This document shows, in pieces, positions 45,181 through 53,968 of a stretch of DNA of 64,000 bases. Every line of letters starts with the position of its first letter. The stretch's first letter is position 1. Made by a program: the position numbers and the translations under genes. The notes beneath the pieces were generated by a model, which saw only the letters and a program-made list of their open reading frames with translations, searched no databases and was not told where the DNA came from. The stretch comes from Halorhodospira halochloris (GTDB taxonomy: Bacteria; Pseudomonadota; Gammaproteobacteria; Nitrococcales; Halorhodospiraceae): contig NZ_AP017372.2 in the NCBI RefSeq assembly GCF_002356555.2, positions 1,776,501 through 1,840,500 on the forward strand. The letters run 5' to 3'.

Positions 45181-46074
45181 GTGCTGACCGTAACCTTCGC
45201 CCTACTCTTCTACGCTGCCACCGCCGTGCTAGTTGGCGGTTTGGTAGCGCGCCTCGCCCTGTATGCTGAGACACCGGCGCCGCTGCGCATCCCTACCACC
45301 CCAGCCCCGACCACTAAAAGCGGGGTGGCCCTGCGGGTGGCTAGCGAGGTGCTGGTCTTTTACAGCCTGTTTCGCTCCAACAAATGGATTTGGCTGCTCG
45401 GCTGGGCCATGCATATCGCCCTGCTGTTGGTAGTATTGCGCCACCTGCGCTACTTCCTCGAGCCGGTACCGCAGTGGGTAGTCTGGATCCAACCACTCGG
45501 GATCTATGCCGCCTACGCACTGATTGTAGCTCTAATCGGCCTGTGGCTAAGGCGCGTGATCATAGATCGGCTGCGCCATATCAGCAGTGTATCTGACCAT
45601 TTAATGCTCGCCCTGCTACTCGCCATAGCCCTGAGCGGCCTGGCGATCAAGCACCTGCAACCGACCGATATCGTCGCGGTTAAAGAGTTTTTCATCGGCC
45701 TGATTCGCTTTAACTGGCAGCCGCTGCCGGCCGATGCGCTGCTGCTCGGTCACCTGAGCCTAGTCTTGCTGCTGATGGTCATCTTCCCGTTCAGCAAACT
45801 ACTCCACGCCCCGGGGGTCTTTTTCAGCCCGACGCGCAATCAGCCCGACAACCCCCGCGAGCAGCGCCACCTCGCGCCGTGGGCTGCCGCTATCGAGCGT
45901 CAAGGCAATTCCGCCAGCGCCGCATCCAGCAACGCTGCCACAGCCAACGGCGCAGCGCGCGCCGATTCACCAAAAGCCCCAGGTAACCCTGGTAATCCTG
46001 GCGGCTCGGACGACCAAAGCAGCAACGCCGCCCCAGGCAATTCAGGGCAGCCAGCGCAAGGGAGGCAGTCGTGA
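45181..46074 (+). CDS. dsrM: DsrM membrane haem-b subunit
   Basis: DsrM is the NarI-like cytochrome b subunit of DsrMKJOP and exchanges electrons with quinone. Five helices and the conserved His residues (GWAMHIALLLVVLRHLRYF, HLMLALLLAIALSGLAIKH, LGHLSLVLLLMVIFPFSKLLH) are visible. An unusual C-terminal tail of about 70 residues is rich in Ala, Asn, Gly, Pro and Ser. It begins with GTG, and its stop overlaps dsrK (GTGA). Confidence 0.94.
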   Translation: MLTVTFALLFYAATAVLVGGLVARLALYAETPAPLRIPTTPAPTTKSGVALRVASEVLVFYSLFRSNKWIWLLGWAMHIALLLVVLRHLRYFLEPVPQWVVWIQPLGIYAAYALIVALIGLWLRRVIIDRLRHISSVSDHLMLALLLAIALSGLAIKHLQPTDIVAVKEFFIGLIRFNWQPLPADALLLGHLSLVLLLMVIFPFSKLLHAPGVFFSPTRNQPDNPREQRHLAPWAAAIERQGNSASAASSNAATANGAARADSPKAPGNPGNPGGSDDQSSNAAPGNSGQPAQGRQS

Positions 46075-47624
46075 GCCAGGAGACCTTTACTGCACCTCAA
46101 GTCCCGGAGGACCCTCAGGATCTGCTCACCCCACCCAATCAGCCGGGGGCGCGCGCCGACAGCCGCCCCCACATGGCCAGTGCCGAACACCAGGAAGCTC
46201 TCGACTTCCCCGGCGCTCTCCCGAGCAATTGGCAGGATATTGCCCTTGAACACTTCGAGAAGCTGCTCGAGCGCAGCCGCTCGTTGCGCGTCTATTTAGA
46301 CAGCTGTGTCCGCTGTGGGGCATGTACCGACAAGTGCCACTTCTACCTCGGCACCGGCGACCCGAAGAACATGCCGGCGGCCCGGCAAGATCTGCTGCGC
46401 GATGTCTACCGCCGCCACTTCACCCCCGCCGGACGCAACTTCCCGGGCTTAGTACGCGGCCGCGAACTGACCAAAGAGGTCCTCGACGAGTGGTTTGTCT
46501 ACTTCCATCAGTGCTCTCAGTGTCGCCGTTGCTCGGTATTCTGCCCCTACGGCATAGACACCGCCGAACTGTCGATGGCCGCGCGTGAACTGCTCGACGC
46601 CGTCGGTTACGGCCAGAAATACACTAACGAGATCATCGGTAAGGTCCACAAGATCGGCAACAACCTCGGCCTCCCCGGTCCGGCCCTAGAGGATACCCTC
46701 GAGGGATTAGAGGAGGATCTTAAGGACGATACCGGGCACGATATCCGTATCCCCCTTGATGAAGAGGGGGCCGACATACTCTTAGTCACCCCGTCGGCCG
46801 ACTTTTTCGCCGAGCCGCACGTCGACGGCCTGATGGGCTACGCCAAGGTCTTCCACCAGGCCGGGCTGTCCTGGACATTGAGCAGTTACGCCTCCGAGGC
46901 CGCCAACTTCGGCATGTTTATCGGCAATTACGAGCAGATGCGTGCGATCGCCGCGCGCATCCGCAAGGCGGCGGTGGATCTCGGCGTTAAGCGTATAGTT
47001 ATCGGCGAGTGCGGCCACGCCTGGCGGGTTGCTTACAGCTTTTGGAATACCCTGGTGGGCATCGGACAGGGGGCGGCAGAGGACGATGAGTACGCCCGCG
47101 CCCTGCAGGATCAACTCGATCCCAACTACCCCATCCCGCAGCATATCTGTGAGCTAACCGCCGACCTGCTCGAGTCAGGAGCCCTGCACCTCGACCCGAG
47201 TGCTAACGAGCATTACGGCGGGGTGACCTTCCACGACTCCTGCAATGTCGCCCGCGCCTCGCGCATGGGCGCACGCCCTGGCGGTCAGTTCGAGATACCG
47301 CGACGACTGCTGCGCGCCAGTGTACCGCGTTTTTACGAGATGGCCCCAGGCACTACCGGCGATGCCACCTTCTGCTGCGGCGGCGGAGGCGGCCTGCTCA
47401 CCGACGAGCTGATTGAGCTACGGGTCCAGGGCGCGCTACCGCGCGTGAGCGCATTACGCGAGAGCATGGAGACTTACGGCGTCGATCGCATGGTCGCGAT
47501 CTGCGCTATTTGCAAGGCTCAGTTCACTAAGGTTTTGCCCTACTACGACATCCCCCGCGACACGGTCATGAGTCTGCACGAGGCGGTAGGCAACGCCGTT
47601 CGCCTAGATCGCGGAGAAGGCTAG
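46071..47624 (+). CDS. dsrK: DsrK, HdrD-like Fe-S subunit
   Basis: DsrK (517 residues) resembles HdrD and is thought to interact with DsrC at a special cubane cluster. Two 4Fe-4S motifs (CVRCGACTDKCHF near residue 80, CSQCRRCSVFCPYG near 147) are followed by CCG-type cysteine domains (FHDSCNVARAS, FCCGGGGG, CAICKAQF). It lies on the cytoplasmic side, attached to DsrM. The GTG start overlaps the dsrM stop. Confidence 0.95.
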   Translation: MSQETFTAPQVPEDPQDLLTPPNQPGARADSRPHMASAEHQEALDFPGALPSNWQDIALEHFEKLLERSRSLRVYLDSCVRCGACTDKCHFYLGTGDPKNMPAARQDLLRDVYRRHFTPAGRNFPGLVRGRELTKEVLDEWFVYFHQCSQCRRCSVFCPYGIDTAELSMAARELLDAVGYGQKYTNEIIGKVHKIGNNLGLPGPALEDTLEGLEEDLKDDTGHDIRIPLDEEGADILLVTPSADFFAEPHVDGLMGYAKVFHQAGLSWTLSSYASEAANFGMFIGNYEQMRAIAARIRKAAVDLGVKRIVIGECGHAWRVAYSFWNTLVGIGQGAAEDDEYARALQDQLDPNYPIPQHICELTADLLESGALHLDPSANEHYGGVTFHDSCNVARASRMGARPGGQFEIPRRLLRASVPRFYEMAPGTTGDATFCCGGGGGLLTDELIELRVQGALPRVSALRESMETYGVDRMVAICAICKAQFTKVLPYYDIPRDTVMSLHEAVGNAVRLDRGEG

Positions 47625-51028: not shown

Positions 51029-52222
51029 ATGGCGTCACGCACCCACTATCATTGTCTAGGCTATAGCTCCCCGGGGTTTTGGCTAAGTAGCGCTGCCTGT
51101 GCCACCCTGGCCCTCGCCGGTGCCGGCACAGCGCTCTATCTCATGCTGCTCGGCCACCACGTCACAGGTATGGGGACCCAATTAGTCTGGGGGATACCCC
51201 ACGTCTTCGCCCTGACCCTGATCCTCACCGGTGCCGGCGCCCTAGCCATTGCCGCTAGCTCCCAGGTCACTAAGCTCAGCAGCGGCGCAGCGCTGCAGCC
51301 GCTTACCCGGCTCGGCGCCATAGTCGCCAGCGCCTTACTAATCGGCGGCTTGGCTGTGTTGGTATTTGACCTTGGCCGACCGCTGCAACTGCCAGTAACC
51401 TTCCAGCACTTTAATTTTAGCTCCAGCTTCGCGCGCAATATCCTCTTCTATCTCGGCTTCTTTGCCATAGTCGGGCTGCTGCTGTGGACTCAGTTCGATC
51501 CGGCGATGCGCCGCTTCTCGCGCGCTGCCGGCTGGTTGGCAATTATTTGGCCACTCTTGCTCGCTGCTAATGTCGGCTCCATATTCGCCCTTCTCAGTGC
51601 TCACGAGGCCTATCGCGGCGGCTTAATGATCCCGCTGCTATTTAGCGCCGGGCTAACTTACGGCAGTGCCGCCTTGCTTCTAGCCTGGCTCGCGGTCCAC
51701 TACCACTCACCTAACGCCGCTAGTCAGCCGGTGAGCGAGCGCTTGAGCTCTCTGCTCGCGCTGTTTATCGGCGCCCATGCCTCGATACTCATCGTCCACG
51801 TGCTCAGCATGTTCTACATGCCGGCTTATCGTGACGCAGCCAGTTTCCTCCTCATCGACGGTGGCATCTACCCGGTCATCTTCTGGCTTGGGCAGGTGCT
51901 CACCGGTATGATCATCCCCTCTCTCCTCCTGCTGTCGGGGGTGGCCCGCAGGCATGCCGGGTTGCTCGCCATAACGGCGGGTCTGGTGCTGCTTGGTGGG
52001 CTAGCCCATCTTTTCGTGATGGTCGTCGGCGCCCAAGCGCACCCATTGTCGATATTTCCCGGCTATGAGGTGACAGGCGCCGTCTTCGATGGGGAGGCTT
52101 TCTATTATTCACCTAGTCTATGGGAGTGGTTATTGGGGATTAGCGGTGCCGCAATAGCCACACTGATCGTCCTCATCGGGCTACGCATACTCCCGCTTAC
52201 CCCTTACTATAGGGGGCCATGA
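51029..52222 (+). CDS. dsrP: DsrP NrfD-family membrane subunit
   Basis: DsrP (397 residues) is a polytopic membrane protein of the NrfD/PsrC type with about ten helices. It exchanges electrons between quinone and DsrO/DsrJ. Hydrophobic segments are evident throughout, with conserved-looking LVFDLGRPLQLP and VLSMFYMP motifs. Its stop overlaps dsrN (ATGA). Confidence 0.93.
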   Translation: MASRTHYHCLGYSSPGFWLSSAACATLALAGAGTALYLMLLGHHVTGMGTQLVWGIPHVFALTLILTGAGALAIAASSQVTKLSSGAALQPLTRLGAIVASALLIGGLAVLVFDLGRPLQLPVTFQHFNFSSSFARNILFYLGFFAIVGLLLWTQFDPAMRRFSRAAGWLAIIWPLLLAANVGSIFALLSAHEAYRGGLMIPLLFSAGLTYGSAALLLAWLAVHYHSPNAASQPVSERLSSLLALFIGAHASILIVHVLSMFYMPAYRDAASFLLIDGGIYPVIFWLGQVLTGMIIPSLLLLSGVARRHAGLLAITAGLVLLGGLAHLFVMVVGAQAHPLSIFPGYEVTGAVFDGEAFYYSPSLWEWLLGISGAAIATLIVLIGLRILPLTPYYRGP

Positions 52223-53796
52223 GCCGAATATATATCTCAGCCCTACATAAATCGTCGGGCAAAACAACACTCGCCATCGGCATCACCGCGGCGCTCAGCG
52301 CTCGCGATGTGACCGTGCAACCCTATAAGCGCGGCCCCGACTATATCGACCCGGGCTGGCTCAGCTTGGCGGCAGGAAGGCCTTGCCATAATCTCGATTT
52401 CCATACCCAGAGCACGGCGGAACTGCTGAGCAGTGTTGCTGAGACCGCCGCGCAGTTCGCCCTGATTGAGGGCAATAAGGGGCTCCACGACGGCACTGAT
52501 GCACAGGGCAAAGACAGTAACGCCGCCCTCGCTGCCTTGTTGCAGACGCCGGTTGTGCTGGTAGTTGACTGTCGCGGCATGACCCGCGGCATCGCCCCGA
52601 CCTTGCTCGGCCATAGCCAGTTTGATCCGCGCATCCAGGTCTCCGGGGTAATCCTCAATCGGGTTGCCGGCAGTCGCCACGAGCGCAAACTCCGGCAAGC
52701 TGTGGAGCAATACACCGACATCAGCGTCCTCGGGGCTATCCCCGATCAAAGCGAATTAGCCATCGCCGCCCCCTACCTCGGCCTGGTGCCGGCCCCGGAG
52801 CAACGGGAGCAAGCGCAGCGGACAATTCGCACCATCGCCGCGGTAACCGCTGAACATGTCGATCTCGAGCAGACTCTTTCTATAGGACGCCTTGAAAAAC
52901 TCACTCGATCTGACTGGTTGCCCGGGTGTGAAGGACGCCGTGAATCCATCCCTGGAGGCTTCACAGCGCCATCCCTGGCGCCAAGACCTTCACCCCGGGA
53001 CAACCAGTCAGACCGGTGGAATCCTGCAAGTTGCCCCATAGGCCGCAAACAAGAGCCGAGCCGCGCGCCATCCGTGGAGTCACACCCTCCACCGCGGCAC
53101 TATGAGCAGCCCTCGCAGGCTGAGGCTACTCTGCGCTTGGGTGTGGCTTACGATCAGGCCTTCAACTTCTATTACCCCGGCGATTTGCAGGCACTGCAAG
53201 CGGCGGGGGCCGAGTTGGTCTGGATCGATATGCTCAGCGCGCCCGAGTTACCACCGCAGCTCGACGGTCTACTCATCGGCGGCGGCTTCCCCGAGCGTCA
53301 CGCCGCCGCGCTGGCTGCTAATGAATCGATGCGGGCTTCGGTATCCGCTGCGGCGCTAGTCGGACTACCGATCTACGCCGAATGCGGCGGCCTTATGTAC
53401 CTCTGCCAGCACTTGACCATCGGGGACGCCACCTATCCCATGGCCGGGCTATTCCCGCTGACTATCGCCATGAACCGTAAACCGCAGGGGCACGGTTATG
53501 TGCGCCTGCAAGTCAATCCATCTGCGCCGTGGTCGCCCGCAGCGCCGGGACAAAACGAACTGCCGGCTCACGAGTTCCACTACTCGGCGCTAGCCGCCGC
53601 AGCTCCCCGCGATGCTGAGTCGACCTTTACCTATGCCTACCAGATACAAGGCGGAAGCGGACTCGGCAACGGTCATGACGGTCTGGTAAAGGCCAACACC
53701 ATGGCCAGTTATGCCCATTTGCGGCACACTCAGGCTAGCCCGTGGGCGGATAATTTCATCGCTTTCCTCAGGCGAGCCTCTAAAACTACCCCCTGA
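52219..53796 (+). CDS. dsrN: DsrN, sirohaem amidase / cobyrinate a,c-diamide synthase family, with in-frame foldback insertion
   Basis: DsrN is thought to amidate sirohaem for DsrAB with glutamine and ATP. The N-terminal P-loop domain (ISALHKSSGKTTLAIGI, KRGPDYIDPGW, IEGNKGLHDG) ends near residue 225. The C-terminal glutamine amidotransferase domain starts near 300 (LGVAYDQAFNFYYPGDLQAL) and holds the nucleophile in YAECGGLMYL. The linker between them contains a complete foldback element (52910-53011, exactly 34 codons, residues about 231-264) read without a stop. The last codons (SKTTP) and the stop also lie in an element arm. At 525 residues it is longer than usual for the family. Confidence 0.93.
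   Translation: MSRIYISALHKSSGKTTLAIGITAALSARDVTVQPYKRGPDYIDPGWLSLAAGRPCHNLDFHTQSTAELLSSVAETAAQFALIEGNKGLHDGTDAQGKDSNAALAALLQTPVVLVVDCRGMTRGIAPTLLGHSQFDPRIQVSGVILNRVAGSRHERKLRQAVEQYTDISVLGAIPDQSELAIAAPYLGLVPAPEQREQAQRTIRTIAAVTAEHVDLEQTLSIGRLEKLTRSDWLPGCEGRRESIPGGFTAPSLAPRPSPRDNQSDRWNPASCPIGRKQEPSRAPSVESHPPPRHYEQPSQAEATLRLGVAYDQAFNFYYPGDLQALQAAGAELVWIDMLSAPELPPQLDGLLIGGGFPERHAAALAANESMRASVSAAALVGLPIYAECGGLMYLCQHLTIGDATYPMAGLFPLTIAMNRKPQGHGYVRLQVNPSAPWSPAAPGQNELPAHEFHYSALAAAAPRDAESTFTYAYQIQGGSGLGNGHDGLVKANTMASYAHLRHTQASPWADNFIAFLRRASKTTP
52910..53011 (+). repeat. foldback element, copy 15 (in frame inside dsrN)
   Basis: Arms 52910-52934 (CTGACTGGTTGCCCGGG...) and 52987-53011 are complementary over 25 bp with about three mismatches and flank a forward core. 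The arms are shorter than in other copies. The length is 102 bp, a multiple of three, and the reading frame stays open. The encoded residues include GCEGRRESIPGGFTAPSLAP. Confidence 0.96.
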
Positions 53797-53968
53797 GGGA
53801 ACCTCTAAAACTTCGCCGGCGCCACCATCCGCCCCGGTGTGGAGGACGCCGTGAATCCATCCCTGGAGGCTTCATGGCGCTATCCCTGGCGCCAAGACCT
53901 CCACACCGGGGCGGATGGTGGCGCCGGCGAAGTTTTAGAGGCCACCCTGAGCCATTTGGCTGCCCCGA
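53776..53968 (+). repeat. old foldback arm split by copy 16
   Basis: GCCTCTAAAACTACCCCCTGAG (from 53776) and, after copy 16, CCCTGAGCCATTTGGCTGCCCC (from 53945) together reproduce one typical left arm. CCCTGAG occurs at both junctions (53791-53797 and 53945-53951). The rest of the older element is missing. The dsrN stop codon lies within this arm. Confidence 0.75.
53798..53944 (+). repeat. foldback element, copy 16 (perfect 44-bp arms, nested)
   Basis: Arms 53802-53845 and 53898-53941 are perfectly complementary over 44 bp (outer CCTCTAAAACTTCGCCGG, inner GGTGTGGAGG). The core is forward. It lies inside an older element arm and is bordered by a CCCTGAG direct repeat, so it looks recently inserted. 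Confidence 0.96.

Follow-up and report, generated by a model that had tools for sequence, protein, structure and literature searches.

The dsrN locus

The window analysed here is a 64,000-nt stretch of the Halorhodospira halochloris genome (assembly GCF_002356555.2, contig NZ_AP017372.2, positions 1,776,501–1,840,500 of the forward strand). It holds a run of dsr genes at about 40.9–53.8 kb, in which NCBIfam models named dsrA, dsrB, dsrE, dsrC, dsrM, dsrK, dsrJ and dsrO; position and matches to related families point to dsrL and dsrP as further members. In this run, DsrK (46071–47624) aligned 481 residues to 433 positions of its NCBIfam model, and no copy of the element described below was detected in its gene. 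The run is closed by dsrN (52219–53796, + strand), an uninterrupted ORF of 525 codons encoding a CbiA-family sirohaem amidase, a protein reported to be necessary for sirohaem amidation (PMC10504309), as an earlier note on this DNA had expected. The closest named matches of DsrN were from Halorhodospira MAGs, and a 37%-identical paralogue at position 322752 of the genome is probably CobB. The P-loop residues G14/K15 and the residues E388/C389/H500 were invariant across 34 sequences. Matches to the predicted DsrN fold included CTP synthase and GatD-type amidotransferase domains; a phmmer search against PDB sequences returned no match.

A foldback element within the DsrN linker

Between the CbiA/AAA_26 domain and the GATase_3 domain, dsrN contains, in frame, a foldback element of 152 bp (52885–53036, + strand; core GACGCCGTGAATCC on that strand), with ends set by alignment and by register with sibling copies. 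The same register places a left target duplication, TATA, at 52881–52884 and a right one, CATA, with one mismatch, at 53037–53040; an exact repeat, ATAGG, lies across the flanks at 52882–52886 and 53038–53042. Element and duplication together add 156 bp, exactly 52 codons, and with these removed the frame reads ...LSIGRKQ.... The earlier note had recognised the foldback, its open frame and its position in the linker between the two domains, all of which stand, but had sized the insert at 102 bp and 34 codons; the 102-bp inner palindrome (52910–53011) is merely part of the element, and position 52910 lies off the codon boundary of dsrN. Within it, a near-invariant core of two hairpins occupies approximately 52934–52986 (+ strand), its complement resembling the TwoAYGGAY RNA family. 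The stretch 52896–53025 folds at −70.8 kcal/mol (z −8.6), a value equalled by none of 200 shuffles, and the outermost right arm is degenerate. Most copies of the family have CCTCTAAAA, which would be TAA in the dsrN frame; the dsrN copy has CCTTGAAAA and contains no stop in that frame.

Comparison with relatives confirmed the insertion, though at a larger size than the 34 residues first proposed. The aligned linker stretch spans 126 residues here versus 64–71 in DsrN of 15 relatives, so that 55–62 residues are extra, of which the 52-codon insert leaves ~3–10 unexplained. The same linker in organisms lacking the repeat family, which would have spoken against an insertion, was sought and not seen among these relatives. 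In the AlphaFold2 model of DsrN, residues 230–251 and 256–296 had pLDDT <50 and most domain blocks exceeded 90, so that most of the insert is predicted to be disordered between two confident domains.

A second copy of 150 bp (53797–53946, + strand, placed by register of siblings) adjoins the dsrN stop codon and is flanked by the 4-bp duplication CTGA (53793–53796 and 53947–53950); the stop was kept because the duplicated CTGA includes TGA.

The repeat family and its target duplication

A search of the single-contig genome (2,834,560 bases) for the core, allowing up to three mismatches, gave 317 matches, compared with three for a reversed-pattern control. Sibling copies were collected from 660 kb, comprising the window and 60 stretches around copies, a sample in which the family is over-represented. 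A strict end anchor captured 32 of 209 copies, and relaxed anchors yielded 125 with readable ends. These copies carry terminal inverted repeats, with a GGGAACCTCTAAAA-like start and a TTTTAGAGGCACCC-like finish. An exact 4-bp direct repeat was found at one register in 56 of the 125, compared with 0–2 at 12 shifted registers, within a target preference of C-NNNN-G. A 5-bp duplication had been considered and was dropped for 4 bp once the relaxed anchors were applied, since the right end stays C even in copies that have some other base just outside the left repeat. The family thus shows both the terminal inverted repeats and the target-site duplication generally expected of a MITE (the latter with one mismatch in the dsrN copy), and its modal net length, element plus duplication, is the 156 bp seen in dsrN (39/125 copies). 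No element-like ends were found at six PF01609 transposase loci, and PF13586 returned no match.

By mechanical gene calls, which make the counts approximate, 184 of 202 placeable copies (~90%) were intergenic; copies in gaps between tandem genes were evenly oriented (42 versus 38), and some lay between divergent genes. One copy elsewhere in the sample (locus L128, 1347–1498, − strand) joins left and right arms of different types, a sequence pattern that suggests recombination between copies. None of the relevant papers in a literature search with core sequences contained them.

Arm pairing and the relationship to TwoAYGGAY

Across 58 aligned copies, two-sided changes were present in 35 of 52 pairs, a count inflated by relatedness among copies but far in excess of shuffles and slid registers; the inner hairpins barely varied. 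The outer arms differ from copy to copy and match within each copy. A rival reading is that the hairpins are functional RNAs of the TwoAYGGAY type under selection for structure, with the dsrN copy acting as a regulatory element. Some observations favour such a role: the core is nearly invariant among copies and genera, the TwoAYGGAY model (RF01731) matched 19 places in the genome (4 above the 43-bit cut-off and 15 below), and CsrA binding has been proposed for TwoAYGGAY on the basis of motif matches (PMC4333381). However, the outer stem contains 70 A.C mismatches and 69 G.T wobbles, and selection for RNA pairing should favour wobbles; their equality argues against such selection in the outer stem, the inner hairpins lying outside this comparison. 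The even orientation of copies in tandem gaps and their presence between divergent genes also weigh against an RNA role, as does the AYGGAY strand being antisense to the dsrN mRNA. We therefore regard a functional RNA as an unlikely account of the element. The arm pairing looks like a product at the DNA level rather than an RNA maintained by selection, and the pattern fits arms that were made complementary as DNA and then drifted, with some process presumably keeping them matched within copies.

Kinship with TwoAYGGAY is supported but not settled. At least 12 of the 19 RF01731 matches coincide with listed copies of the element, but most copies fell below the cut-off, the dsrN copy among them with no match, and a gathering-threshold Rfam scan of the loci with RF01731-matching copies listed none. 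The model also matched three of the other core-bearing genomes that were tried, one of them above the cut-off, and matched neither of two core-free congeners. Weak Rfam matches to microRNA families, Ysr224 and the like were far below their cut-offs and were set aside as generic hairpin matches.

Other Gammaproteobacteria also have the core, there joined to arms of unrelated sequence: across these genomes it is 80% identical, and arms are 43% identical versus 40% for shuffled arms, with within-copy arm complementarity of 23.1 of 33 versus 3.9 for controls. Three other genomes (G009, G120 and G368) have about 20–49 core copies each with arms of their own, which suggests separate expansions. Core matches numbered ~230 in the H. 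halochloris genome versus 0–3 in eight congeneric genomes, and the expansion therefore looks recent or lineage-specific. The original description of TwoAYGGAY tabulated it as probably an RNA and probably not cis-regulatory (PMC2864571). Tentatively, and with somewhat less than even odds, we suggest that TwoAYGGAY may at heart be a mobile DNA hairpin module, in which a conserved core carries long arms that share no ancestry between genomes but are self-complementary within a copy, being kept matched by hairpin-templated copying from one arm to the other, and which in H. halochloris would lengthen proteins in frame.

Resemblance to known repeats

The earlier note had likened the insert to Rickettsia palindromic elements (RPE), which are ~150 bp long, palindromic and multi-copy, with some lying in frame in conserved genes (PMC10969869). 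The likeness in size, palindromic form, copy number and in-frame insertion holds, and the element works like an RPE; it is not classed as one, however, the resemblance being one of form and behaviour. The host differs, most of the placed copies (~90%) fall between genes, and the family here shows a 4-bp target duplication. Its kind is better described as MITE-like, with a 4-bp duplication and a TwoAYGGAY-like core. With the bacterial MITEs ERIC, NEMIS, RUP and Nezha (PMC3733652) it shares shortness, terminal inverted repeats and high copy number, but it is paired over almost its entire length, its double-hairpin tip being conserved and its arms peculiar to each copy, and searches with PF01609 and PF13586 found no partner insertion sequence. 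TwoAYGGAY shares its two adjacent hairpins, AYGGAY-type loops (on the complement strand) and poorly conserved external stem, yet is catalogued as RNA, whereas the element here behaves like repeated, inserted DNA. REP and CGTC-tagged repeats are likewise palindromic, chiefly intergenic and at times within genes, but are much smaller (20–40 bp for REP, 8–9-bp stems for CGTC) than an element of ~150 bp with a target duplication.

In-frame insertion and its consequences for DsrN

The dsrN insertion is not unique, as at least four further conserved genes carry in-frame copies. These were sought through stop-free frames spanning copies, family models and duplications, and comprised comEC (duplication CATT, +156), mnmM (TTGA, +138), a yfcH-like gene (CGCA, +144) and ygiQ (no clear duplication), giving five clear in-gene, in-frame cases among 208 copies. 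Several other seemingly in-gene copies were dropped, as they lay upstream of genes or between them.

We favour, with a probability of roughly 0.85, transposition of a non-autonomous, MITE-like foldback element into the dsrN linker, leaving 52 tolerated residues. The element, presumably mobilised by a transposase acting in trans, would have entered the linker and duplicated 4 bp of target; element and duplication would together have contributed the family's commonest length, a multiple of three, and the 52 added residues would have fallen in an exposed, disordered inter-domain tether where the enzyme could tolerate them. DsrN carrying the insert is presumably made and active. The earlier note had left the insert as either tolerated or useful: predicted disorder and intact catalytic residues support tolerance, nothing found supports usefulness, and the insert would thus be tolerated rather than beneficial.

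Domestication, in which DsrN would have come to use the 52 residues, perhaps to bind a partner, could account for a frame that stays open through sequence whose siblings have a stop in that frame, but appears improbable for an insert that is predicted to be disordered and shared by no relative, and when four other, unrelated genes have similar inserts, with more than one element frame in use among them. Mitochondrial bypassing elements are inserts removed or skipped at the RNA or ribosome level, and the strong hairpin in the message might suggest the same here, but with a multiple-of-three length and a stop-free frame skipping is unneeded, and we consider it very improbable.

Conclusion

The dsrN insert is thus an in-frame, MITE-like foldback insertion of a kind known from Rickettsia, with a core, ends and target duplication of its own, and one that the protein probably tolerates. 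Here, in a host other than Rickettsia, a palindromic element has clearly made conserved proteins longer while keeping their frame; the target duplication shows how it arrived, and dsrN is required for a defined cofactor. Counting A.C mismatches against G.T wobbles is a simple test that would serve for other structured repeats too. Of wider interest is the link to TwoAYGGAY, which raises the question whether a family listed in Rfam as RNA is in fact mobile DNA.
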